This document shows, in pieces, positions 44,398 through 57,584 of a DNA stretch of 64,000 bases. A program made the translations under genes and the position numbers. The stretch's first letter is position 1. Every line of letters starts with the position of its first letter. The DNA comes from Prevotella sp. Lineage in GTDB: Bacteria > Bacteroidota > Bacteroidia > Bacteroidales > Bacteroidaceae. The notes beneath the pieces are model-generated. The model was not told where the DNA came from and did no database searches. It was given only the letters and a program-made list of their open reading frames with translations. The stretch is taken from contig JAFVGI010000027.1 in NCBI GenBank assembly GCA_017475005.1, positions 1 to 64,000 of the forward strand, written 5' to 3'.

Positions 44398-44425
44398 ATT
44401 TGAACTTTGAATTATGAATTATCCG
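44398..44425. repeat. Heptanucleotide repeat between hppA and the nuclease gene
   Basis: ATTTGAA, CTTTGAA, TTATGAA and TTATCCG follow in 7-bp register and fill the short gap, reaching into the hppA stop codon. Confidence 0.65.
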
Positions 44426-46611
44426 AAGGCGATTGTCAGGCCTGCCATTACGATACTTACCATTGACATGAGCTTGATGAGGATGTTAAGTGATGGGCCG
44501 CTGGTATCTTTGAATGGGTCACCAACAGTATCACCTACGATGGTAGCCTTGTGAGCAAAGGAGCCCTTACCTCCGAAGTTACCCTCTTCCACCATCTTCT
44601 TCGCATTATCCCAGGCGCCACCTGCATTTGCCATAAAGACAGCCAGAGTGAAGCCACAGGTAAGACCGCCTACGAGAAGTCCCAGAACGCCTGCAACGCC
44701 AAGCACGCAACCTACGACGATAGGAATAGCGATAGCGAGGAGAGAAGGGAATATCATCTCTGCCTGTGCAGCACGAGTAGAGATTTCCACGCAAGAGCCA
44801 TAGTCAGGAGTAGCCTTTCCTTCAAGGATTCCCTTTATCTCGCGGAACTGACGGCGCACCTCTTCCACCATCTTCTGTGCAGCACGTCCTACAGCCTCCA
44901 TAGTAAGACCACAGAACAGGAAGGCTGCCATACCTCCGATGAAGGCACCAACGAGAACCTTTGGATTCATCAGGGTAACCTGGAAGTAGTTCATGAAGTC
45001 AGGAATAGTAGCCTGTGCAGCACTAATCGCCTCACCCTTGAGGTTTGTGAGCTGCATACCAGTACGCTCCATAGCAATCTTCACCTCTTCTATATAAGAA
45101 GCCAGCAAAGCCAAAGCAGTGAGGGCAGCAGAACCGATAGCAAAGCCCTTACCTGTTGCAGCAGTAGTATTTCCCAAAGCATCGAGGGCATCAGTGCGAT
45201 GACGCACATCCTCACCCAGTTCACTCATTTCTGCATTACCGCCAGCATTATCAGCGATAGGACCATAAGCATCAGTAGCAAGGGTGATGCCAAGTGTTGA
45301 CAGCATACCAACAGCAGCAATACCAATGCCATAAAGACCCTTTGACAAAGCAGCAGCAGACATTTCAGTATCGAAGCCGTTTGCAAAGAGATAGCTCAAC
45401 ATAATTGCTACACCAATAGTGACAACAGGAATGCAGGTAGAAATCATACCTGTTCCGATACCCTTGATGATAACAGTAGCAGAACCTGTAAGACCTGCCT
45501 CAGAAATCTTCTGAGTTGGCTTGTAGCTGTGAGAAGTATAGTATTCTGTTGCCTGTCCTATTACGACACCAGCCACCAAACCTGTTATTACTGAGAATGA
45601 CAAGCCGAGCCAGTTTTCGATACCCAACAGGTAAAGGATAGCAAATGTAGCAGCAGCTATGAAGAGTGCTGACACATTAGTACCCACAGAAAGAGAATGA
45701 AGCAGATCCTTCATTGTTGCGCCCTCTTTGGTACGAACGAGGTAGATGCCGAAGATGCTGAGGAACACGCCAACAGCAGCAATAAGCATAGGAGCGATGA
45801 CAGCCTTCAGCTGCATGTCTGGAGCCATAGCGAAGGCAGTAGCACCAAGGGCAGCAGTAGAAAGGATAGAGCCGCAATAGCTCTCATACAGGTCAGCTCC
45901 CATACCAGCAACATCACCTACATTATCGCCCACATTATCAGCAATAGTAGCAGGATTGCGAGGGTCATCCTCTGGGATATCAGCCTCAACCTTTCCCACG
46001 ATATCAGCACCAACGTCAGCAGCTTTAGTATAGATACCGCCACCAACACGAGCAAAGAGAGCCTGTGTAGAAGCACCCATACCAAAGGTCAGCATTGTTG
46101 TTGTGATAGTGATGAGTGCCATCTGGTCGCCATGATAGAAATGGCTCAATACGAGGAACCAGATTGCGATGTCAAGCAATCCGAGACCTACGACAGTAAG
46201 ACCCATCACAGCACCGCTGCGGAAGGCTATCTTCAGACCGCCGTCAAGACTCTTACGGGCTGCATTGGCTGTACGTGCGCTGGCATAGGTTGCCGTCTTC
46301 ATGCCGAAGAAGCCAGCAAGACCAGAGAAGAAACCACCAGTAAGGAAAGCAAATGGCACCCAAGGATTCTGCACCTTAAGCACATAAGCCATAAATGAGA
46401 AGATTACAGCAAGCACCACGAAGACTATCGTAACGACTTTGTACTGCTGTTTCAGATAAGCCATAGCGCCACTGCGCACATGACCTGCAATTTCACGCAT
46501 ACGAGGCGAGCCTTCATCTGCCGACATCATCTGGCGGAAGAAGTACCACGCCATACTTAGTGCCACAAGCGATGCTATAGGCACCAACCAAAAAGCTAAT
46601 GGAGTGTTCAT
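44419..46611 (-). CDS. hppA: Membrane-bound ion-translocating inorganic pyrophosphatase
   Basis: A 730-residue membrane pyrophosphatase with about 16 transmembrane helices. It couples PPi hydrolysis to H+ and/or Na+ export. The catalytic loops are visible: [39 protein letters not shown], and the C-terminal acidic loops near [10 protein letters not shown] and [15 protein letters not shown]. The segment [10 protein letters not shown] has Ala and Gly at the positions that in K+-independent enzymes are Lys and Thr, so this should be a K+-dependent form. Ion specificity is not settled. A heptad repeat lies upstream of its start (46622-46650). Confidence 0.96.
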
Positions 46612-46621
46612 GTTTTATTTA

Positions 46622-46650
46622 ATTGATAATTGAAAATTGATAATTATTCA
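46622..46650. repeat. Heptanucleotide repeat upstream of hppA
   Basis: ATTGATA, ATTGAAA, ATTGATA and ATTATTC lie in strict 7-bp register in the gap between the fimbrillin-like gene and hppA. Confidence 0.75.
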
Positions 46651-46690
46651 TTCAGTGCTTAACAGAATATTGGTTCTATTTTTCCTAAAC

Positions 46691-47974
46691 CTACTCTACA
46701 TACACAGTCATCGTTGATTCATTGTCGTCAACTGTTTTTGCCGTAAGGGTTGTTGAGCCTATACCTACAGCGGTGAGAGTCTTACCGTCCTCAGAGACTT
46801 CTATCACACCTGGGGTACCAATGTTGAAGGTCAGTTTCCTGTTCGTAGGAGCAGGAGTCTCCCACTTGCAGTATTGTTTCAATTCAATCTGCTGATTCTT
46901 GGCAAGAGTAATCTGAGGGGTTGTAAAGTTCATCACACCCGTAATAGCCTGTGATGTCCACAGATTAGCCTCTTCATCACTCATAGGACCATAGATATAG
47001 ATATTGTCACCTGGCTGAATTGACTTTCCCTGGAACTTTCTCCAGTAAGCCACCTGCCCACCGCCACCCAAGGCAGCATTTGCCGTAATGCCAGGATAGG
47101 TACGGGCATTGACACACATCACGATGGTGATGTCACCATTCTCGTCAGGGGCCATATTGCCGTAATACACAGCATCAATAATCTTCGGATCATCAGGCCT
47201 TTTCTTATAAACCATATTATCAGATCCTTTAAGAGCGTTTCCGCTACTGGCATCCCTGAAGGTCTGTGAATCCGGCATATACCTGACAATCTGACCCAGA
47301 GTCAGCGTCTTGGACTTATTGTAATTGGCATTAGTTCCTCCTGCATTATCCACACCACCAGGCATAGTGCCCTCTAAATGGTTTCGGATTTGTACAGCAT
47401 CAATGTATGCTCCCTTGATATGTATCTTGGCCATAGGTCTTGTAAAGTTGAGGAAAATGTCAATGACACCATTTTCATCTACTGTGTATTTTCCTTCTTT
47501 AGTGAACAGGAGGTCCCTTACCTTACCGCCTGCATAAGAGGTCAAGTCCGTCGAGGCTGTATTATTCATATGAAACTTTGATGGCTTTAGGTGTGTCAAG
47601 TCAAGATAATCACCACTCATAGCAAACGTCACTTTACCGCCAGCGGGGTTGAAGTCTTGCATGCCAGCATTCGTGTACCACTCCTCAAAGGTCCATGCAG
47701 CGCCGTCATAGATTGCCTTGATGCCTTTGTCGTTAACATCTGTTTCAGGGCCACCATCAAGCAAGAAGAATATCATATCACCTTTTGCCCAGGCGGTCTT
47801 GTCGTCGGAAGGCTCGTCATAACGTGTACCTCCATCTATGGTTGCATGAAGGCGTATTTTCTGACCATCAGCAGGAATAGTCTCTGCTATGCCAGACTCT
47901 TCGAGCGAAGAGCATGCCGTAAACGCTGAAGTCAACGCGAATAGCAATATATATATGTACTTTTTTATCTTCAT
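46691..47974 (-). CDS. Fimbrillin-like lipoprotein with C-terminal Ig-like (BIG2) domain
   Basis: A 427-residue lipoprotein (lipobox FTAC at residue 21). The N-terminal region has features of the Bacteroidetes fimbrillin/Mfa-like family: IRLHATIDGGTRYDEPSDDK, then WAKGDMIFFL and a FNFTRPMAKIHIKG-like segment (LNFTRPMAKIHIKG). The last about 85 residues form a BIG2-type Ig-like domain (ITLAKNQQIELKQY, VIEVSEDGKTLTAVGIGSTT). It is probably a surface adhesin or pilus-related subunit. It lies 16 bp after the shorter Ig-like lipoprotein gene at 47991, and both may follow rnhB in one transcript. Confidence 0.8.
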   Translation of the reverse strand: MKIKKYIYILLFALTSAFTACSSLEESGIAETIPADGQKIRLHATIDGGTRYDEPSDDKTAWAKGDMIFFLLDGGPETDVNDKGIKAIYDGAAWTFEEWYTNAGMQDFNPAGGKVTFAMSGDYLDLTHLKPSKFHMNNTASTDLTSYAGGKVRDLLFTKEGKYTVDENGVIDIFLNFTRPMAKIHIKGAYIDAVQIRNHLEGTMPGGVDNAGGTNANYNKSKTLTLGQIVRYMPDSQTFRDASSGNALKGSDNMVYKKRPDDPKIIDAVYYGNMAPDENGDITIVMCVNARTYPGITANAALGGGGQVAYWRKFQGKSIQPGDNIYIYGPMSDEEANLWTSQAITGVMNFTTPQITLAKNQQIELKQYCKWETPAPTNRKLTFNIGTPGVIEVSEDGKTLTAVGIGSTTLTAKTVDDNESTMTVYVE

Positions 47975-47990
47975 AGACTATTTATGTTGT

Positions 47991-48434
47991 TTACCATTGT
48001 TGTCTTTCTGGATAAGCTGGATATGGCACCCCAGAGAGATTGTCCACATTCACGATACACTCGGCCTTGATGCCCTGATCAACAGAAGTAACTGTTATCG
48101 TTACTTTTCCACCTCCCAGAAGTGGGTCATTGTCAGGATTAGATGTTATCTTACCATCCTCGACCTTGACAATTGAGGGATCGCTTGAGGTCCATGTTAC
48201 GTCTTTGCAACTGGCATTCTCAGGAGAAATGGTTACAGTAATAACATCTGTACTATTCCTCGACATGTTGATTTCATACTTGTCGAGAGCCACTCCTGTT
48301 ACCTCAACATAACCTGGCTCAGGTGGAAACTCGGAGCCAGAGTCAGAGTCAGAATCATCGGAGCAACATGCCGTGAAACATATTGCAGTCACAAGTCCTA
48401 ACATCAGAAATAGAATTTTACTTTTTGTGTCCAT
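47991..48434 (-). CDS. Small lipoprotein with one Ig-like (BIG2) domain
   Basis: A 147-residue lipoprotein: signal peptide and lipobox FTAC at about residue 23, an Asp/Ser-rich spacer (SDDSDSDSGSE), then one BIG2 fold. The BIG2 fold starts VEVTGVALDKYEINM and contains DVTWTSSDPSIVKVEDGKI and GGKVTITVTS. The end is atypical (VPYPAYPERQQW). It is 12 bp after rnhB and 16 bp before the fimbrillin-like gene, whose last domain is of the same type. The pair may be parts of one surface complex. Confidence 0.8.
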   Translation of the reverse strand: MDTKSKILFLMLGLVTAICFTACCSDDSDSDSGSEFPPEPGYVEVTGVALDKYEINMSRNSTDVITVTISPENASCKDVTWTSSDPSIVKVEDGKITSNPDNDPLLGGGKVTITVTSVDQGIKAECIVNVDNLSGVPYPAYPERQQW

Positions 48435-48446
48435 GTTAATTGGGTG

Positions 48447-49040
48447 TTATTCAAATCTAAACGTCATTCTGTGATAAGGTGTGGGGCCATATTTCTTTAT
48501 TGCCTCCCTATGTTTCTCTGTCGGATAGCCTTTGTTCTGCAGCCAGTCATACTGCGGATATTCCTCCGCCAGTTGTGCCATATAGTCGTCACGATATGTC
48601 TTGGCAAGGATGCTGGCAGCTGCTATCGACAAGTATTTTCCATCGCCTTTCACAATAGTGGCATGTGGCATTGCCATTATTCCGCCATCAGGATAGTATG
48701 GGTCGAACTTGTTGCCGTCTATTATCAGGAACTCTGGTCTTACCTTTAATTGATCCAAGGCTCTGTGCATAGCACGATACGAAGCATGCAAGATGTTTAT
48801 CTCGTCTATCTCCTGTGCCGTACACACCCCTACTGCCCATGCTACAGCGTCTCGTTCTATCTCTGTTCGCAATTGATAGCGAGTCTTCTCGCTCAGCTGT
48901 TTCGAATCATTAAGAATATCGTTGTGATAATCAGGCGGCAATATCACGGCAGCAGCATATACGCTGCCTGCCAGGCATCCTCGCCCAGCCTCGTCGCAAC
49001 CTGCTTCTACAACTCCTTTCTTATAATATGGCAACAGCAT
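48447..49040 (-). CDS. rnhB: Ribonuclease HII
   Basis: A 197-residue RNase HII that removes ribonucleotides and RNA primers from DNA. The catalytic signature [17 protein letters not shown] is near the N-terminus, followed by [11 protein letters not shown] and later [13 protein letters not shown] and [11 protein letters not shown]. The ATG at 49038-49040 is chosen because a promoter -7 element (49071-49078) overlaps the earlier in-frame ATG at 49073, which would not be transcribed. It is probably cotranscribed with the two downstream lipoprotein genes. Confidence 0.95.
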
Positions 49041-49070
49041 TGTTAGGGCATATTTAATTGTATGCGTGCA

Positions 49071-49100
49071 CAAAGGTACAAAAAAAATACGAAAACCAAA
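49071..49100 (-). promoter_or_regulatory. Promoter of rnhB
   Basis: The minus strand reads TTTG (complement of 49097-49100), 18 bp, then TACCTTTG (complement of 49071-49078). The leader to the chosen ATG is about 25 nt. Confidence 0.7.
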
Positions 49101-49180
49101 ACGAAAACTAAAACTTTTATACCTAAAACTTTATATTTCTTGCCTGCAGGAATCATTTTCCCCTAGGGAGAATTTATGTT

Positions 49181-49264
49181 CAAGGGCCTTAAACATATGT
49201 CCAAGGGTTGTGAACTACTGTCCAAGGACCTTGAACATAAGTTCTCGGGCCTTGAATACAAAAT
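49181..49264. repeat. 21-bp degenerate tandem repeat, 4 copies
   Basis: Units of 21 bp start at 49181, 49202, 49223 and 49244, with cores AAGGGCCTTAAAC, AAGGGTTGTGAAC, AAGGACCTTGAAC and CGGGCCTTGAATAC. Several cores are palindromic (AAGGGCCTT). Being a multiple of 3, the tract stays open in several frames, but no gene is supported. It lies between the divergent promoters of rnhB and the polysaccharide cluster, next to a CCCTAGGG string. Confidence 0.75.
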
Positions 49265-49352: not shown

Positions 49353-49384
49353 TTTGGGGATTTCAAATATTTTTTGTAACTTTG
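49353..49384 (+). promoter_or_regulatory. Promoter of the exopolysaccharide-type cluster
   Basis: TTTG at 49353-49356, 20 bp, then TAACTTTG at 49377-49384. The leader to the ATG at 49418 is about 28 nt. No other promoter is obvious within the five-gene run. Confidence 0.8.
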
Positions 49385-49417: not shown

Positions 49418-50701
49418 ATGTACGCAACTTCGTGGATTACATATCTTATTAATCTGTTTATGGCATATGCCACATACTATGTGACATATTTCATAGAGAT
49501 TTTTCAGGGATATCCCCTTGAAGTCAGGACTGCCGTTTTTGTAACGACAGCATCCTTAATTGGCATTGGTATAGTAAGGATTTGGCTGACAAACATCAGG
49601 CGTGAAAGATATTTTGACAAGAAAATGACAGCACGTCTGACATCACGTTTTGGCAAGGGTCTCGACTATATCATCTCAGACGAAGCCAGCCCCAATATGT
49701 CGCGTCGTGAGGTGATGCATGCTATGGGTATAGAAAAGGAAGTAGCAGAGAAGACAACCATCCTAAAGACGAGACATGAGAAATGGATTTTCTGCCGAAT
49801 GTTAAACCAAAGATGCACAGCCGGCTTGATAAAGAGGGCTCACTGGAACAACATACAGATGATGATTACGCTCTTCAACATCCAGGAGTTCCTGGAAGGC
49901 GAAGTCAGTCGAGGCAGTCAAGAGCATCAGGTAATGAGTCTTGGTATGTTGTGTGCCTTCAAGCTGCACATCAGCCCGTGGATTCTGAACAAGACACTTG
50001 AATCACACAATATACGAAAGCGTCGTCTGGCAATGTATGCGATGGTGTTGTCCAGTACCGACAACGAATTTGACTACTACGAATCAGACTTCTTCGACAA
50101 GCATTGCTGCATCTATGACGAAATAGAGTTGGGTTATGCCCTATATCGTCGCCAGAGGAACGGCATGAAGCTCCCCAACCTCGCAACATGGGCTTTGCGA
50201 CAGGCTCACCCAGACACTAAGTGCATCTTCGTAAGACTGATGAGACGCTTTGACCAAAGAGACGCCTGTCATATCCTCGTTAACCTATACAAGGAGAGCA
50301 AACACAAGAAACTGATAGAGGAGATTTCCCGCACCTGGGGATACCTGTACTATACAGACAGCGAGCAGTTGATGACGGATGCCCTGCTGATGCAGCCTGA
50401 TGACACAAAGGTTGCTATCATGCATGCCCTGACACGCTTGAATACAGGCAAGAGTCTTGACACATTGGCAGAGAGCTTCTTTATCCATACAAATCCACAC
50501 GTAAGGTTTGAGGCTTTGCGATGTCTCTACAACTATGGCCCAGAGGGCAAAAAGAGATTCGACGAAATAGAAGCCCAAGCAGCTGAAGTGGACAAGAAAT
50601 ATTTCGTATTTTTCCACAACCCAATCACACTTGAAAAGATACGCCTCGACAAAGAGCAGGCATATCACCCATCTGTGGAAATGGTATATAACTGGAGTTA
50701 A
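49418..50701 (+). CDS. Membrane-anchored HEAT-repeat-like protein of the polysaccharide cluster
   Basis: A 427-residue protein with two N-terminal hydrophobic segments (about 5-30 and 37-58). A helical soluble domain follows (about 75-400) whose helix-pair spacing looks like HEAT/armadillo repeats (for example VRFEALRCLYNYGPEGKKRF). There is no catalytic motif. As the first gene of the GT2-TPR/barrel-DUF4838-DUF1573 cluster it may be the inner-membrane adaptor of the synthase, the place that PgaD- or BcsB-like subunits take elsewhere; that is inference. The stop codon falls inside a heptad repeat, 36 bp before the glycosyltransferase start. Confidence 0.7.
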   Translation: MYATSWITYLINLFMAYATYYVTYFIEIFQGYPLEVRTAVFVTTASLIGIGIVRIWLTNIRRERYFDKKMTARLTSRFGKGLDYIISDEASPNMSRREVMHAMGIEKEVAEKTTILKTRHEKWIFCRMLNQRCTAGLIKRAHWNNIQMMITLFNIQEFLEGEVSRGSQEHQVMSLGMLCAFKLHISPWILNKTLESHNIRKRRLAMYAMVLSSTDNEFDYYESDFFDKHCCIYDEIELGYALYRRQRNGMKLPNLATWALRQAHPDTKCIFVRLMRRFDQRDACHILVNLYKESKHKKLIEEISRTWGYLYYTDSEQLMTDALLMQPDDTKVAIMHALTRLNTGKSLDTLAESFFIHTNPHVRFEALRCLYNYGPEGKKRFDEIEAQAAEVDKKYFVFFHNPITLEKIRLDKEQAYHPSVEMVYNWS

Positions 50702-50736
50702 GAGTGAAGAATTAAGAGTTAAGAAATAGGAATTAA
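50695..50736. repeat. Heptanucleotide repeat between the HEAT-like and GT2 genes
   Basis: GAGTTAA, GAGTGAA, GAATTAA, GAGTTAA, GAAATAG and GAATTAA lie in strict 7-bp register. The first unit contains the stop codon of the upstream gene and the last ends one base before the GT2 start codon. Confidence 0.85.
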
Positions 50737-50737
50737 C

Positions 50738-52177
50738 ATGTGGTTAACCATATATTACATATTCTGTTATCTGATATTCGGATACTCATTATTGATTATG
50801 ATGAGTTATCTGTTTCTGGTTATCCAGAGCTTCAGGGTGCAGAGAAGAATGGTTGGTAACACGCCTAACGACGAGACTATCAAGTTCTTGTTGCAGGGGT
50901 CGCCATTGACTCCTGGTGTATCTATCATCGCGCCAGCCTTCAACGAGGAGGTCACCATTATCGATAACGTCTATTCGCTGATGAATATCGACTACCCCAA
51001 CTACGAAATCATCATCGTCAACGACGCCAGTACCGATAAGACTATGGAGCTGCTCATCAACGAATTCTCGCTTACAGAGGTGCCATACGATGTTGCGATG
51101 AAGGTACCATCTAAGCCTATAAAACGAGTGCTAAAATCTACAAAAGACGAGTTCAGCAAGTTGGTGGTAGTTGACAAGGAACATGGTGGACGAAAGAGTG
51201 ATGGTTCGAATGCCGGCATCAATGTATGTGCGAACAAATATTTCGTATGTACCGATGTGGATTGTATCATCGAGCCGATGGCGCTTTATCGTATGATTTG
51301 GCAGGTAGTAAACAGTCATGAGCCGATGATAGGTGTCAGCGCCACGATGCTTATGAGTAATGCCTGCATCGTTGAAGACGGTCGTGTGGTTGAGGCTCAT
51401 GTGCCCAGCCAACCCATTCCGATGTTCCAGCAGCTGGAGTATATGCGTTCCTTCCTCATTGGTAAACTGGGATGGGCCGCTATGGATGCTCTGCCTAACA
51501 TCTCGGGTGGCTTCGGTATGTTTGATACTGACGTTGTGGTAAAGTCAGGCGGATATGACCAGACGAGTATGGCGGAGGATATGGATATGCTGTTGCGTAT
51601 GGTGACATATATGAGAAACAACGGCCTGAAGTTCCGCTTGGCACAGGTGCCACAGGTTTGCTGTTGGACAGAGGGACCTGCCACCATCAAGACACTGTAT
51701 CGACAAAGAGTACGTTGGGCTCGTGGATTGTGTGAGATTATAACAAACCACAGGCAGGTATTCTTTAATCCGCACTATGGTCCTATCGGAGCAATCACAT
51801 TGCCTTATATCTTCATCTTCGAGTTTATCGCTCCTGTACTGGAGTTATTCGGACAGGTCTTCATGGTATGGCTGCTCTTTGCAGGAGGCATCAACTGGGT
51901 AACTGCCATCATCATCTTCGGCATGATATATTCCTTCTGCGTATTTATGTCCTTCACCCTTACATTGTTCGACTATAAGGTGCGTGCAGTTCCTTGGCAC
52001 AAGACATGGAGGAGCCACACAAAACTGTTAATCGCCGCAATGTTGGAGCCATTCATATATCACCCAATGATTATGATATTCTCGAATATTGGATACTGGA
52101 GATTCCTTAGAAATACAGCAGCTGTATGGACACCTATCCAACGAAGAGGTGTTAAGAAGCGTGCTAAGAATAATTAA
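50738..52177 (+). CDS. Processive family 2 glycosyltransferase (polysaccharide synthase)
   Basis: A 479-residue membrane GT2. It has an N-terminal TM helix (about 5-32), a catalytic domain and several C-terminal TM segments (from about 350). The processive-synthase motifs are all visible: VNDASTDKT, D173-V-D175, AED (E280-D281) and Q323-R-V-R326-W327 (QxxRW). This places it with the BcsA/PgaC/HasA group that elongates and exports a beta-linked polymer through its own membrane channel. No PilZ domain is seen, so control is probably not by direct c-di-GMP binding. It is the enzymatic core of the cluster; the sugar is not predictable. Confidence 0.9.
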   Translation: MWLTIYYIFCYLIFGYSLLIMMSYLFLVIQSFRVQRRMVGNTPNDETIKFLLQGSPLTPGVSIIAPAFNEEVTIIDNVYSLMNIDYPNYEIIIVNDASTDKTMELLINEFSLTEVPYDVAMKVPSKPIKRVLKSTKDEFSKLVVVDKEHGGRKSDGSNAGINVCANKYFVCTDVDCIIEPMALYRMIWQVVNSHEPMIGVSATMLMSNACIVEDGRVVEAHVPSQPIPMFQQLEYMRSFLIGKLGWAAMDALPNISGGFGMFDTDVVVKSGGYDQTSMAEDMDMLLRMVTYMRNNGLKFRLAQVPQVCCWTEGPATIKTLYRQRVRWARGLCEIITNHRQVFFNPHYGPIGAITLPYIFIFEFIAPVLELFGQVFMVWLLFAGGINWVTAIIIFGMIYSFCVFMSFTLTLFDYKVRAVPWHKTWRSHTKLLIAAMLEPFIYHPMIMIFSNIGYWRFLRNTAAVWTPIQRRGVKKRAKNN

Positions 52178-52206
52178 GAATTTTGAATTAGGAATTATGA
52201 ATCGTG
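52172..52206. repeat. Heptanucleotide repeat spanning the start of the TPR/barrel gene
   Basis: AATTAAG, AATTTTG, AATTAGG, AATTATG and AATCGTG are in 7-bp register. The ATG at 52197 is supplied by the fourth unit. Confidence 0.8.
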
Positions 52207-54965
52207 CATTTTGCATTATAATAAGTTTGTTATTGATGCCGTTGGTGTTGCTTGCTGAAGGCTACACCCCTCGCTATTATGTTTCGCGAGCAGAGTCTTA
52301 TATTCAGTCAAGAGCATGGAACGAAGCCAAGCGCGTTATTGACGAAGGACTGGCAGGATATCCTGCCAATCCGGATTTACGTTACCTTAACGGACGCTAC
52401 TACTATCAGGCACGACAGTACAACGAAGCACGATATAACTTGGTTAAGTCAATACAAGCTGACGACCAGCACTTCAAAGCCAAGCGATTGCTGGTTGATG
52501 TGGAGGACGACACGAAACATTACTCCAGCGCCATCTGTTACATCAACGAGTTGTTGGAATTCCAGCCCTACGACATCGACCTGTGGCGTCGCAAGATAGC
52601 CTTGTATCGCAAGATGAACAATCATGCAGAAGCAGATGCTGCTTTGGAGCGATTGTCACGCATATATCCTAACGACACCTTGGTAACGAATGATTTGAAG
52701 CGCCGTCGCCGCGAGAATCTGCGTACCATAACAAATACCAGCAACCTCAGCGAGTCAGCTGCCACAATAGAGCAATGGCTGGATAAAGACCCCAAGAATC
52801 TGGAGTACTATCTCGACCTCATTGGTGTATATCAGAGGATGGGTGAATTCGAGAAGGCCATTGGTGTCGCCAATCGTGGCCTGCAACAATTCCCGGGCAA
52901 CAAGGTGCTCGTCAACAAGATGGTAGGCATTCTGACCGATTTGGGACTATACTCCCAAGCCTTCGAAGTAGCAAAGCGCTATGACCCACACGGAACAGCA
53001 TACAATAACCTCCTGCACCAAGTAGCAGCACAGGCACGCATGCAGGACAGCTACGACATTCATGGCAGGCTGTATGCAGAAACACATGATCGCGAGGCTC
53101 TCACATATCTCATCAACACGTCTTTGACACGAGGATATTACGACGATGCGCGTATGTATCTCAGCGAAGGAATGAAGTTAGAAGGACGCTCGGCAAGACT
53201 GCTGATGAAGCAGTATGCTCTTGAGAAACGCATGGGCAACGAACACGAGATGCACAAACTGCTCCTTGAGTTATATGCCATGAATCCTAACGATGAAGAA
53301 CTGCAAGAGGAATATACCAACATGATGCTTCAACTGGCCATCAACGAAATGTCTGGAGAGCAATGGGCGGATGCGGCACAACATCTGAAGAGAGTTCTTG
53401 AGATAATGCCTGTCACCAATGAGTCATGGCCTTCTGCTGTATCGCGTCGTATTACGTGTCTTGGTCACATGGGGCAGTATGACGAGGCTCGCAAACAATA
53501 CAGGGAGGCAGCAGACAAGAGTGCTGCAAACCGCAAGCGCTTCGCATCAGCATATGAGGACATCGTAGCGAACAGGTTACACTTCCTTATTGAAGAGGAG
53601 AATTACGACGAGGCACTACAGGAAGCACAGCAGTTGTTGGAAGTGATGCCAGAAAGTGAAGCAGCATTACGTTGCTGCATCAATATGAGCCAGACGCTGA
53701 AAAAAGACGATCTGTTCCAGAAGTATGCTCGTATGGGCTATGAGGCATTCCCCAATGAGCCATACTTTATCGTGAAGCAGGCTATATCATTGCAACAGCA
53801 AGGACAAAGTGCAGAGGCACTCGCCCTTTTGAAGAAGCCCATAGAGAAAGACCACACAATGCTCGATGCAGCCTTCTCCGGCATTAGTGCAGAGTGGGCA
53901 CAACAGCTCATCAAGAATCACATGCCAGACATTGCGCTAACTGTCATTGACAGTGCACTAGTTCATGATGCCAAGAATAAGGAACTGCTATATATGAAGG
54001 GTTTGGCATACGAGCAAATGAAGGTATTTGATAAGGCTTACGAATACCAAAGGAATTATTATGTGCCAAATAATGCTGAGCAGAAGGAATACTATCAGCA
54101 CCTGCACAACCTGTACTTCAGGGGAAGGAAGAACCGCGTTGATGCCTCTTATACATACGCCTCGTACGACTCACGCCAGAACGAAGCAGCAATAAGCAGC
54201 CATCTATATTCTATTGCTACGGTAGCATATAGCCGAATCGACAGCATCAACACCTATACGGCTCAAATCAGCTATAAGGGAATAGACGGAAGCCATAATA
54301 CCGATGAGGACAATACAGACGAAGATGATGCAGGAGGTGTAGGACTGGAGTTTATGGCACAATGGGAACGCGACTTCAATCATCGTTGGAGCGGTACAGT
54401 AAATTTTGCCTATTCCACACGCTTCTTTAACAAGATAGGTACCAACATCATGGCAGCATATCACATGAATCGCGACTGGACACCATCCTTGCGACTTGGA
54501 TATCGTCGCACACCAAAGACATATCTGTTCATGAAAGGTGGTGATGTTACGCACGATAATCACAACCTGTTTATCGTAACACCTGCCATCGAGAAGTCAT
54601 GGGAACGCATGAAGGCATCATGCAATATTGACGTAACCTTCATGGAGAGTTCTGTTTACTACAACATCGGTCTGAAGGGAAAACTCTTCATCAACGAAGA
54701 CTACATTTCATCCGTCTCCCTGCTGACAGGCTTCGGTTCGTTCCCAGAACTGACCTTCTTCGAGCAGACTGCACTAAATAACATGTCGCACACCAATGCT
54801 ATGGTGGGCTTTGATGCTCAGTACCTGGTTACAAAGAACATGTGCGTAGGACTGACAGGCAGTTGGAACACATACTTTAACCCATACCGCGATGCGAGCA
54901 AAGAATATCACGACTCTTATCGTAATGTTTACAGCATAACTGCGCAATTACATGTTGTATTTTAA
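52197..54965 (+). CDS. TPR-rich exported protein with C-terminal YaiO-like outer-membrane beta-barrel
   Basis: A 922-residue exported protein. The signal peptide is residues 1-20 (LLAEG). TPR-type helix pairs fill about 25-650 (PANPDLRYLNGRYYYQARQY, PKNLEYYLDLIGVYQRMGEF, and others). The C-terminal about 270 residues are a barrel of alternating aromatic strands (SYTYASYDSRQN, WSGTVNFAYSTRFF, LYRNVYSITAQLHVVF-like end) like the YaiO family. TPR plus barrel mirrors PgaA and AlgK/AlgE, which form the periplasmic and outer-membrane exit for polymers. ATG at 52197 is chosen for the signal peptide; an open frame extends back into the GT2 gene. Confidence 0.85.
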   Translation: MNRAFCIIISLLLMPLVLLAEGYTPRYYVSRAESYIQSRAWNEAKRVIDEGLAGYPANPDLRYLNGRYYYQARQYNEARYNLVKSIQADDQHFKAKRLLVDVEDDTKHYSSAICYINELLEFQPYDIDLWRRKIALYRKMNNHAEADAALERLSRIYPNDTLVTNDLKRRRRENLRTITNTSNLSESAATIEQWLDKDPKNLEYYLDLIGVYQRMGEFEKAIGVANRGLQQFPGNKVLVNKMVGILTDLGLYSQAFEVAKRYDPHGTAYNNLLHQVAAQARMQDSYDIHGRLYAETHDREALTYLINTSLTRGYYDDARMYLSEGMKLEGRSARLLMKQYALEKRMGNEHEMHKLLLELYAMNPNDEELQEEYTNMMLQLAINEMSGEQWADAAQHLKRVLEIMPVTNESWPSAVSRRITCLGHMGQYDEARKQYREAADKSAANRKRFASAYEDIVANRLHFLIEEENYDEALQEAQQLLEVMPESEAALRCCINMSQTLKKDDLFQKYARMGYEAFPNEPYFIVKQAISLQQQGQSAEALALLKKPIEKDHTMLDAAFSGISAEWAQQLIKNHMPDIALTVIDSALVHDAKNKELLYMKGLAYEQMKVFDKAYEYQRNYYVPNNAEQKEYYQHLHNLYFRGRKNRVDASYTYASYDSRQNEAAISSHLYSIATVAYSRIDSINTYTAQISYKGIDGSHNTDEDNTDEDDAGGVGLEFMAQWERDFNHRWSGTVNFAYSTRFFNKIGTNIMAAYHMNRDWTPSLRLGYRRTPKTYLFMKGGDVTHDNHNLFIVTPAIEKSWERMKASCNIDVTFMESSVYYNIGLKGKLFINEDYISSVSLLTGFGSFPELTFFEQTALNNMSHTNAMVGFDAQYLVTKNMCVGLTGSWNTYFNPYRDASKEYHDSYRNVYSITAQLHVVF

Positions 54966-54986
54966 GTAATTAATATTGCAAGACCT

Positions 54987-56696
54987 ATGGCCAGACAACT
55001 TCGTACACTATTTTCCGCATTACTGATGGTATGCTTCAGCAGCAGCTGCGGGACGGCCCAGGAATCTCCCTTTGCATACAAAGAGATATACCTGCCAGAG
55101 AAAGACTCCAAACAGGCTAAAGAACTGGGACTGAACAATCTTGATGCAGATTGGGGTATATGGGGCCACAACCTTAACCATGTTCTCCCTTCAAACCCTG
55201 CACCAAGCATATATGCTGTAGTAAATGGCAACAGGACAGACGAGCAGTTCTGCTTCTCTTCGGATAAGTTGTATGAGTACATCGTAACATATATCGAAGA
55301 CAATTACGGAGAAAGCGAACAACATCGTTTCGCCATCCTGCCTTGTGATAATGCTATGGTATGTACCTGTGACAGATGTAAGAGCCTCGGTAATACCACA
55401 AAGAATGCCACACCAGCAGTAAGCTACATGCTTGAGAGACTGGCAAAGCGTTTCGAAGATCATCTCTTCTTCACTTCGTATTACCTGTCAACACGCGAGG
55501 TGCCAAATCATAATATGCCAAAAAATACTGGCGTATTGGTTAGCACTATGAGCTATCCGCTGCAAGCCACAGGGACTCCTGCAGAAGAGGAATTCAAGAA
55601 CATCCTGCAGAAATGGCGTGAGAAGATGAATCACGTTTATGTGTGGGACTATGTCAATAACTTTGATGACTATATGACACCATTCCCAATACTGAATATC
55701 ATGCAACGACGCTTGCAATTGTATAAAGAGGTTGGAGTCAATGGCGTCTTTTTCAATGGTAGCGGAACAGACTATAGTACCCTTAGCCAACTGCATTTCT
55801 ATGTCATTGGAAAACTGCTTCTCAATCCCTATGATGATTGGAAGAAACTGGTGACAGAATACTGTAACGAGCATTATCCTACAGCAAGTGATCTGGTAGC
55901 TAATTTTGTAATAGAGCAGGAAGACTGGGCAGCCAATAAGAACCACGCCCTACCCCTCTATGGAGGTATCACCCAATCTATCGCCACCTACCTGCCGGAG
56001 CAACAGTTTGTAAAATTCCATCAATCACTTGCGATGATTCTTCCTCAGACAGACGGTAAAGAGAGAGCAGAACTTGAGACAATGTGGCAAGCAATGGCAT
56101 TGACACGGCTGGAGTTGAATCGTTTAAACCATTCAACAGATGATAGTGAACCATTTTTAGATGGATTACGCAAGCTTACAGCAAAGAACATCCGGATATA
56201 CAGCGAGTCTTTCTGGTATATTGACAGTTATTTTAATGAATACCAACAGATGCTGTCCCACAAAGCAGAAGCTAAACGAAACCTCCTGTTAGGAAAACAG
56301 CTACAGCCTATGACAGCCCTTGATGAAGAGTATAATGACATCAGCATACTTACTGACGGCCAATTAGGATTGCCATCCAATTACCATTGCGGACAGATGT
56401 TGTCTTCTGCTGACCCACATCTGAAGATTTCCATCCCAAGGATTGCCGGAATGAAAAAACTGAAGGTATATCTGGTCAACAATCCCAAGTATCATATCAT
56501 CCTGCCAGAGAAGGTTACGCTGTCATCAGGAGGCCGAGAACTGGGATCAGTAGTTCCTACCACAGACGATATGGACCAGCAAAGGAGTATCGTAGAATTC
56601 AACATCCCTTCCAGTGCTTCTGGCACACTGATACTTACTATACGTCGCAACACAGCCGATCGTACTATGTCTATTGACGAGATAGAGGGATACTGA
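54987..56696 (+). CDS. DUF4838 lipoprotein of the polysaccharide cluster
   Basis: A 569-residue lipoprotein (lipobox SSSC at residue 21). The central region (about 60-400) matches DUF4838: FAILPCDNAMVCTCDRCKSL, LVSTMSYPLQ, YVWDYVNNFDDYMTPFPIL and NGVFFNGSGTDYS. This is a TIM-barrel-like domain related to glycoside hydrolases. The C-terminal about 100 residues look like a beta-sandwich. In the PNAG system the analogous lipoprotein, PgaB, carries a hydrolase-like barrel plus a deacetylase; no deacetylase motif is seen here. A role in trimming or guiding the polymer in the periplasm is inferred from position. Confidence 0.78.
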   Translation: MARQLRTLFSALLMVCFSSSCGTAQESPFAYKEIYLPEKDSKQAKELGLNNLDADWGIWGHNLNHVLPSNPAPSIYAVVNGNRTDEQFCFSSDKLYEYIVTYIEDNYGESEQHRFAILPCDNAMVCTCDRCKSLGNTTKNATPAVSYMLERLAKRFEDHLFFTSYYLSTREVPNHNMPKNTGVLVSTMSYPLQATGTPAEEEFKNILQKWREKMNHVYVWDYVNNFDDYMTPFPILNIMQRRLQLYKEVGVNGVFFNGSGTDYSTLSQLHFYVIGKLLLNPYDDWKKLVTEYCNEHYPTASDLVANFVIEQEDWAANKNHALPLYGGITQSIATYLPEQQFVKFHQSLAMILPQTDGKERAELETMWQAMALTRLELNRLNHSTDDSEPFLDGLRKLTAKNIRIYSESFWYIDSYFNEYQQMLSHKAEAKRNLLLGKQLQPMTALDEEYNDISILTDGQLGLPSNYHCGQMLSSADPHLKISIPRIAGMKKLKVYLVNNPKYHIILPEKVTLSSGGRELGSVVPTTDDMDQQRSIVEFNIPSSASGTLILTIRRNTADRTMSIDEIEGY

Positions 56697-56699
56697 TAG

Positions 56700-56734
56700 T
56701 TGACAATTGATAATTGATAATTGACAATTGATAA
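56700..56734. repeat. Heptanucleotide repeat, 5 copies of TTGAYAA
   Basis: TTGACAA, TTGATAA, TTGATAA, TTGACAA and TTGATAA follow in exact 7-bp register directly after the DUF4838 gene. The next 50 bases (to 56783) contain a short GC-rich patch with nothing recognisable. Confidence 0.9.
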
Positions 56735-56783
56735 TTCTTTCAGTCGCTCCGCTTGGTGAAAGCGTCACAAGTGCCGAGCGGAC

Positions 56784-56832
56784 AATTGAGAGTGAAGAGT
56801 GAAGAATTAATATATTAGAATTAGGAGTGAAG
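56784..56832. repeat. Heptanucleotide repeat reaching the DUF1573 start codon
   Basis: AATTGAG, AGTGAAG, AGTGAAG, AATTAAT, ATATTAG, AATTAGG and AGTGAAG run in 7-bp register. The last unit contains the GTG start codon (56827) of the next gene. Confidence 0.8.
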
Positions 56833-57384
56833 AAGTTACTGCTTATAGCGTTACCACTATTATTGTTCATTGCATGCGAAAAGAAATTGAAGCCTGCAAC
56901 GGTGATTATCGTTGACCCTGTACGTCACTACTACCCTGTTGTGCAGGGAGATATAATGCGTGTTTCGTATGCCATTGAAAATGTTTCCGAGAATCCTCTT
57001 TTCATTAAGGAGGTGCAAACCACCTGTGGATGCCTATTACAGCGCGACGAAATGCCTATTGTCATTCTTCCTCACAAGCAGGGGCACATCAATATTGACT
57101 TCAACACGATAAAGAATACGGGCTATGCCCAACACTTTATATACTGCTACGGCAATTTCAAGGACTCCAGCGTCATCGAACTTCAGTTCGACACCAATAT
57201 CGTTCCGGCTGGGCACACGACCCCTGACTATGAGGAATTGTGGCAGGAGCAGAACGGAGTGAGAATAAATGAAGCTGTTGACGGCACAAAAGGCGAAAAA
57301 GGATACTACATCGACAACCGTGTCAGTACACGTCAACAAAAACAGCAAGAAATACAGCATGAAGTCGATTCACATGCTTTTTGA
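56827..57384 (+). CDS. DUF1573 lipoprotein, GTG start
   Basis: A 185-residue lipoprotein: signal peptide and lipobox FIAC at residue 17. The mature domain contains VSYAIENVSENPLFIKEVQT, TTCGCLLQ and ILPHKQGHINIDFNTIKNTG, the DUF1573 pattern of an Ig-like beta-sandwich (ASPM/SPD-2/Hydin-like). The tail (about 140-185) is polar. Function is unknown; these domains often accompany surface or secretion systems in Bacteroidetes. It is the last gene of the polysaccharide cluster. The start is GTG within a repeat, and no ATG is available before the signal peptide. Confidence 0.82.
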   Translation: MKKLLLIALPLLLFIACEKKLKPATVIIVDPVRHYYPVVQGDIMRVSYAIENVSENPLFIKEVQTTCGCLLQRDEMPIVILPHKQGHINIDFNTIKNTGYAQHFIYCYGNFKDSSVIELQFDTNIVPAGHTTPDYEELWQEQNGVRINEAVDGTKGEKGYYIDNRVSTRQQKQQEIQHEVDSHAF

Positions 57385-57386
57385 GG

Positions 57387-57507
57387 ATCCACGATAGGTG
57401 CACGGAGGATGCACGGAGGATGCACGGAGGATGCACGATAGGTGCACGATAGATGCACGATAGATGCACGATAGATGCACGATAGATGCACGATAGATGC
57501 ACGATTG
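57387..57507. repeat. 11-bp tandem array, 11 copies
   Basis: CACG recurs at 57390, 57401, 57412, 57423, 57434, 57445, 57456, 57467, 57478, 57489 and 57500, an exact 11-bp period. The unit has two main variants, ATGCACGGAGG and ATGCACGATAG. It starts just after the DUF1573 stop codon. There are no spacers, so it is not a CRISPR array. Confidence 0.95.
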
Positions 57508-57517
57508 TGGTTCTTTA

Positions 57518-57584
57518 ACGAGATTACGGCTCACTGCCCACGAGATTACGGCTCACTGTTAATGAGATTACGGCTCACTGTTAG
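57518..57584. repeat. 22-bp tandem array, 3 copies
   Basis: GAGATTACGGCTCACTG begins at 57520, 57542 and 57564, with period 22. It follows the 11-bp array after a short unique stretch and precedes the terminator. Confidence 0.9.

Follow-up and report, generated by a model that had tools for sequence, protein, structure and literature searches.

Which polymer system may be encoded by five consecutive genes in a 64,000-nucleotide window of Prevotella sp. contig JAFVGI010000027.1, and by what partner might its synthase be controlled? The best-studied synthase-dependent exopolysaccharide systems are those of Proteobacteria, several of which are switched by cyclic di-GMP (c-di-GMP). Control through PilZ or similar domains is known for several systems but not for all. 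Bacteroidota account for much of the gut and rumen microbiota. A first-pass annotation of the window had described a processive GT2 glycosyltransferase encoded together with a membrane HEAT-like protein, a TPR protein ending in a YaiO-like barrel, a DUF4838 lipoprotein and a DUF1573 lipoprotein. We find that the operon is real and conserved, and that it probably encodes a synthase-dependent exopolysaccharide exporter of Bacteroidota with a HEAT partner and a GH163-type hydrolase. Its workings are best read as resembling poly-N-acetylglucosamine (PNAG) or cellulose secretion, with the HEAT helper as the apparently new part.

The five genes form a conserved operon

All five open reading frames are present on the forward strand at 49418–57384, as annotated, and are separated in order by gaps of 36, 19, 21 and 130 bp. 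The start of the TPR/barrel gene was corrected from the TTG at 52089 in the listed frame to the ATG at 52197, and the DUF1573 gene begins with the GTG at 56827. The source genome comprises 2.36 Mb in 72 contigs and is 81% complete.

Conserved co-occurrence of the five families had been set beforehand as a test of the proposed system. A GT2 scan of species genomes yielded 41 loci, and longer stretches were added through searches of the order, class and genus. After exclusion of short loci (L001-L031, L110-L139 and L163-L169) and of L170, which lies on the same contig as L034, the final sample held 101 GT2 genes scoring above 500 bits in 98 loci, with no other two GT2s identical. Co-occurrence was scored where at least 1.4 kb upstream and 7 kb downstream were available (75 GT2 genes in 73 loci). 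HEAT, GT2, TPR/barrel and DUF4838 genes occur together in 44 of the 73 loci. All five genes are found in 39, and 38 of these 39 run in one direction, the exception being L074, which is split and divergent. Thus, the five families are neighbors elsewhere, and the five genes form a conserved operon.

The nearest GT2 matches come from Prevotellaceae and Prevotella metagenome-assembled genomes (77-92% identity), a set that we call the rumen clade; many further matches have rumen or reticulum in their titles. A GT2 match at E 1.2e-92 or lower was found in 28 of 294 genomes of the order. Within the genus, 8 of 150 genomes match at 1e-60, including one decayed copy and one other layout, and 59 of 396 genomes of the class match a Polaribacter GT2 at 1e-60. 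The distribution is patchy. Broken or truncated GT2 copies in L175 (8926-11419) and L108 (9228-11515) are apparently decaying.

In a maximum-likelihood tree of 59 GT2s, the 27 rows that combine the DUF4838 type with a long TPR protein fall into a single group (97/90; recovered in 98% of 200 bootstrap trees). L037 was assigned to this group although its contig ends ahead of DUF4838. Members come from the rumen clade, other Bacteroidales, Polaribacter vadi and Deminuibacter soli, and the operon type reaches Flavobacteriaceae and Chitinophagaceae. The idea of a distinct Bacteroidales system is thus supported with a wider range: the operon is conserved in that order but is not limited to it. The same-family L075 pairs with L144 from outside the order, suggesting transfer.

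Three layouts were observed. The window type reads HEAT, GT2, TPR-barrel, DUF4838, DUF1573. The second, in L147-L150 of one family, reads HEAT, GT2, a short TPR-YaiO-like protein, DUF4838 and a response regulator. The third varies in order and combines a response regulator, a short TPR-YaiO protein, HEAT and GT2, sometimes with a sulfatase-superfamily domain fused to or beside the GT2. HEAT plus GT2 is the most conserved core, while the remaining genes vary by lineage.

The putative synthase and its proposed HEAT partner

The GT2 synthase gene (50738–52177, forward strand) was identified by Pfam, NCBIfam, motifs and the tree. Its product matches Pfam GT2 at 2.7e-16 and has one N-terminal and four C-terminal hydrophobic segments. 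The DxD, ED and QxxRW motifs of processive-type GT2s are intact, as had been reported, and are near-universal: across 30 aligned GT2s, residues D96, D173, D175, E280, D281, R326 and W327 do not vary, and Q323 is almost invariant. Among NCBIfam models, PgaC_IcaA ranks first for the window GT2, at 101.2 bits against a cut-off of 422.3, and this model matches all 30 aligned GT2s, including E. coli PgaC as a positive control. With our GT2 family model, E. coli PgaC, YaiP and BcsA score 82.0, 45.6 and 23.1 bits, respectively. The family profile reaches cellulose, hyaluronan and chitin synthases, and the match to hyaluronan synthase is near full-length (profile 16-458, E 4.6e-6). Together with the gene layout, the motifs suggest a processive enzyme with an exported product.

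Several GT2s of the sample have unusual forms. A sulfatase-superfamily domain is fused to the GT2 C-terminus in L155 and L157, which may mean that the polymer is modified in these lineages. In the class search, seven GT2s sit in open frames of 1135-1264 aa, and the L060 GT2 has an insertion of ~35-40 residues after the DxD region. In L071 and L142, two adjacent GT2 copies lie between the HEAT and TPR-barrel genes; each copy pairs in the tree with the corresponding copy of the other genome, which places the duplication before their split.

The HEAT protein gene (49418–50701, forward strand) was assigned from Pfam, a family profile and gene order. At the N-terminus of its product, a membrane segment (residues 39-57) is followed by basic residues and then by the HEAT-repeat domain, which is probably on the cytoplasmic side. 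The window protein matches Pfam HEAT_2 at 4.3e-5 and 24.2 bits, under the 27.7-bit cut-off, and homologues in L070 (35.1 bits) and L140 (38.3 bits) are above it. Additionally, the family profile matches designed alphaRep proteins, which we take to be HEAT-like (the synthetic fusion 9sah, the best match, at 1.6e-26; AlphaRep-7 at 7.4e-15), and the natural HEAT protein 6veh (2.4e-9). The designation as a membrane HEAT-like protein is thus borne out.

To describe the pairing of the two genes, we considered every GT2 with at least 1.4 kb of upstream room (96 genes in 93 loci). The GT2 is preceded by a HEAT gene in 93 of 93 loci. The HEAT gene is adjacent, at most 350 bp upstream and on the same strand, for 94 of the 96 GT2 genes, and each of the two others is the second GT2 of a tandem pair in which HEAT precedes the first. 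The HEAT and GT2 genes overlap by 4 bp in 18 of 96 cases, HEAT remains adjacent in 80 of 82 GT2s after thinning to 90% identity, and the pairing holds across several gene layouts. Because GT2 similarity was the basis for picking the loci, and the same sample served to train the HEAT model, these figures describe this GT2 family and not all GT2s. No HEAT match was found beside the more distant GT2s that had room upstream (L103-L106, L109 and L108, the last of them broken; none scores above 384 bits); upstream room in L107 was insufficient for this test. L103-L109 represent a separate GT2 type, followed in most cases by one short TPR protein and then two large ones. Fusions of HEAT to GT2, or of a response regulator to HEAT, were absent among the loci examined.

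Other genes also adjoin the HEAT-GT2 pair. These include CotH kinase-like genes in L152 (6438-7796) and L153 (12417-13712). A protein of ~380-395 aa also recurs; two members were scanned, and neither gave a Pfam match.

Probable exporter and lipoprotein genes, and rival readings

The TPR/barrel gene (52197–54965, forward strand) was identified by Pfam, with its barrel assigned via relatives. The protein consists of a signal peptide (by eye), a long TPR region (Pfam TPR, 4.7e-22) and a C-terminal barrel at approximately residues 640-922. TPR models match 31 of 31 aligned members, and the PF19413 YaiO barrel model matches 9 of 31 (best 1e-37). A Pfam scan of the window protein gave no YaiO match for its barrel. 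The TPR part of the original description stands, and the YaiO-like ending applies to relatives but was unmatched in the window copy, so that direct YaiO membership was dropped. A barrel profile comparison at 99.8% was set aside because a truncated member of the set, L112, served as the displayed row; the barrel assignment therefore rested on the Pfam matches. The outer-membrane barrels of synthase-dependent secretion are described as having 16-18 strands (PMC9601211), and the PgaA TPR region is proposed to carry PNAG out (PMC9384988).

The DUF4838 gene (54987–56696, forward strand) encodes a GH163-like protein of 569 aa that was identified by Pfam (PF16126, 2.6e-37, 129.1 bits against a cut-off of 26.6). 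Residues D121, D221, E407 and D457 and a CxCxxC motif are invariant. In PMC9870897, DUF4838 is labeled GH163, an endo-beta-N-acetylglucosaminidase; the protein thus plausibly acts on beta-N-acetylglucosamine (GlcNAc) linkages. The DUF4838 domain is clear, but the proposed lipoprotein status is only probable, since a Cys is present at the signal peptide end and the lipobox pattern failed. Most rumen-clade loci encode a DUF4838 protein of 568-588 aa and many distant members one of 711-774 aa, and short forms also occur in L171, L173, L174 and L074 (466, 560, 579 and 433 aa). The window protein lacks an N-terminal part of ~150 residues found in many distant homologues, for which sub-threshold GH20b, GH67N or NAGLU_N matches were obtained in 3 of 5 tested.

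The DUF1573 gene (56827–57384, forward strand) encodes an immunoglobulin-like (Ig-like) protein that matches Pfam DUF1573 at 6.6e-11 and is taken to be a lipoprotein, in agreement with its annotation. Across the sample the lipobox pattern was found in 23 of 54 DUF4838 and 34 of 44 DUF1573 proteins. None of these lipobox-positive proteins has three or more acidic residues right after the Cys. Acidic residues just after the lipobox Cys are a mark of surface export.

Published expression data bear on the DUF4838 gene. In Polaribacter dokdonensis, the GT2 MED152_03905 (8.8-fold) and the DUF4838/GH163 MED152_03915 (18.5-fold) were upregulated together, according to PMC9870897, whose authors mention this GH163 along with other enzymes when discussing the use of GlcNAc. 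The joint rise fits one operon, and the gene order of Polaribacter vadi suggests that this would be the operon described here. As that paper reads the Polaribacter gene, DUF4838/GH163 would be catabolic and the cluster would degrade an external GlcNAc polymer. GH163 is indeed described in N-glycan breakdown (PMC10154615), and the operon is followed closely, on the opposite strand, by a SusC/SusD-like pair that was named by eye. However, the DUF4838 gene travels with synthase and TPR-barrel genes, and the lipobox-positive DUF4838 and DUF1573 proteins lack the acidic mark of surface export. We therefore regard degradation as very unlikely.

The proposed parallel with PNAG, cellulose and alginate secretion is seen in the shared set of synthase, TPR, barrel and hydrolase-like protein, and, as also noted earlier, Pfam shows no deacetylase or PilZ domain in any of the five proteins. 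Like the window operon, E. coli pgaABCD encodes an inner-membrane GT2, a TPR region and outer-membrane barrel in one protein, and a periplasmic lipoprotein with a glycosidase domain, and among named GT2 models the window synthase comes closest to PgaC. Unlike pgaABCD, the window five have no deacetylase or PgaD match (the five proteins were scanned, and the rest of the genome was not searched for a deacetylase), and they include HEAT, a DUF4838/GH163 hydrolase and a YaiO-type barrel, in a set of 25 genomes with no PilZ or GGDEF. Plain PgaC or PNAG membership was rejected on the GT2 score given above, and a PgaA-type porin was rejected at 31.6 bits against 366.65, with a 3.5% probability in a comparison of the barrel profile with the single E. 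coli PgaA barrel. A pga system with the same polymer and mechanism, its parts diverged beyond recognition, would accord with PgaC_IcaA being the best GT2 model, with the shared layout and with GH163 action on a beta-GlcNAc bond (PMC10154615). These low PgaC and PgaA scores and the missing deacetylase and PgaD matches argue against it, as do sister operons that join HEAT-GT2 with sulfatase-superfamily modules, which are missing from the E. coli pga locus. We consider such divergence unlikely; the best reading is of a system related to PNAG secretion that falls outside PNAG membership by these scores.

Three further systems were compared. The bcsABCZ operon shares a GT2 synthase, a TPR-barrel protein (BcsC) and a periplasmic hydrolase (BcsZ), but no BcsB-like or PilZ match occurs in the window five and BcsA is only weakly reached by the GT2 family model. 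E. coli yaiO-yaiX-yaiP-yaiS also has a YaiO barrel and a GT2 in one locus, but no HEAT gene is annotated there and YaiO, as a single sequence, was not recognized by the window-type barrel profile (probability 0.4%). The sister Bacteroidota loci (response regulator, TPR-YaiO, HEAT, GT2 and, in some, a sulfatase-superfamily domain) share the HEAT-GT2 pair and a TPR-barrel, and differ in their short TPR part, the lack of DUF4838 and the presence, in 28 of 39, of a response regulator no more than 6 kb away.

Several observations weigh against an exporter with these partners. Closeness to PgaC is modest, since each of the 30 GT2s is matched by five further NCBIfam models besides PgaC_IcaA. The GT2 profile ranks chondroitin synthase, GalT1 and other GT2s over cellulose synthase. 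L060 and L061 have HEAT and GT2 but no recognizable TPR/barrel or DUF4838 gene in the following 2.5 and 6.9 kb, so the HEAT-GT2 pair can occur without this exporter; L061 falls inside the DUF4838-type group of the tree. Of the 44 four-gene loci, 5 lack DUF1573. The Bacteroides GH163 described in PMC10154615 cuts GlcNAc-beta-1,2-mannose of N-glycans rather than a bacterial homopolymer. As a single sequence, DUF4838 has no PDB match at E up to 1, and its family profile gave only implausible PDB matches (E of at least 0.49). Finally, no stand-alone response regulator lies within 6 kb in any of 33 loci of the window's clade. The GT2 ranking, in which several other GT2s outscore processive membrane synthases, bears on a further alternative: a non-processive GT2 that glycosylates a lipid or surface protein, with a TPR/barrel protein that exports no polymer. 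Processivity is judged here from motifs alone, which also leaves room for such an enzyme. Nevertheless, the invariant ED and RW (with Q nearly so), the four C-terminal hydrophobic segments, the near full-length hyaluronan synthase match and the TPR-barrel and glycosidase genes linked in 44 of 73 loci make a non-processive GT2 improbable, and a polymer exporter remains our preferred reading.

Control, genomic setting and significance

The PNAG system is switched by c-di-GMP (PMC9384988). We found PilZ in 0 of 25 and GGDEF in 0 of 25 genomes (the window's own genome, 81% complete, and 24 relatives; 17 of the 25 with completeness of 90% or more and contamination of 5% or less), whereas control genomes were positive (PilZ 5/14, GGDEF 8/14). 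Among the other DUF4838 loci, 9 of 26 have a stand-alone response regulator no more than 6 kb away, against ~1.9 expected. For loci without DUF4838 the figure is 28 of 39, modestly above the ~17.8 expected. The expected values were derived from the terminal parts of these stretches and refer to genes rather than to loci. These per-class counts replaced a pooled density of response regulators (38 in 956 kb of nearby and 10 in 563 kb of more distant sequence). In L171, of the same genus, the HEAT gene is immediately preceded by two histidine kinase genes, and the operon is followed by a response regulator gene. Relatives thus hint at a two-component link, of which the window locus shows no sign.

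We infer the following mechanism from the gene families, their linkage and the single GT2 group. The inner-membrane GT2 would polymerize sugar and thread the chain across the inner membrane, as its motifs and family suggest, and the polymer would most likely be a beta-linked hexosamine-containing chain. The HEAT protein may be a dedicated GT2 partner that lies by the catalytic domain on the cytoplasmic face and assembles or gates the synthase, replacing PgaD or PilZ modules; the gene pairing is observed, and the contact and role are proposed. The TPR region would take the chain through the periplasm and its barrel would let it out, while DUF4838/GH163 would trim or release it in the periplasm, like the PgaB hydrolase domain. 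The DUF1573 Ig-like lipoprotein may help assemble the outer-membrane part, which is the weakest assignment. In some relatives, though not at the window locus, the encoded response regulators or histidine kinases may feed signals into HEAT. On the best reading, the HEAT subunit sits where c-di-GMP parts sit in other systems. A stronger version, possible but doubtful, would make HEAT the obligatory cytoplasmic partner of this Bacteroidota synthase class and its control point instead of a c-di-GMP receptor, with phosphorelay response regulators docking on HEAT and switching synthesis post-translationally.

The promoter annotated ahead of the cluster corresponds to a putative TTTG-N20-TAACTTTG site (49353–49384, forward strand), located from the sequence and a pattern scan, which lies 65 bp before the ATG of the HEAT gene. 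TTTG-N20-TAACTTTG is the Bacteroidetes promoter consensus. The same promoter-like site is found at -64 in L032-L035. In a pattern scan of 66 HEAT upstream regions, the TTTG form occurs in 10 and a looser TTG form in 13; by mononucleotide shuffling, the looser form would be expected in ~1.2. A sigma-70 scan found 28 sites (19.7 expected, sd 4.1), and the 49353-49384 site was not among them.

An RNase HII gene, named by eye, lies upstream of the operon on the opposite strand. The closest relatives, L032-L035, share the window's neighbors at 44419-49073, a membrane pyrophosphatase-like gene and RNase HII (by eye). Short repeat arrays are located upstream of the operon (49175-49256, 21-bp unit, 3.9 copies) and in the 130-bp gap before the DUF1573 gene (56694-56736, 7/21-bp unit). 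Past the operon there are two tandem arrays, at 57386-57505 (11-bp unit, 10.9 copies) and 57515-57583 (22-bp unit, 3.1 copies).

Judged by titles and the beginnings of abstracts, the open literature yielded no description of this system or its HEAT helper, and the main text of a survey of synthase-dependent operons (PMC7112194) contains no mention of Bacteroid, Flavobacter, HEAT, response regulator or YaiO. If HEAT is a control subunit, the operon would point to an uncharacterized polymer in Prevotella-like bacteria and would provide a defined gene pair for asking how Bacteroidota control a surface polymer.

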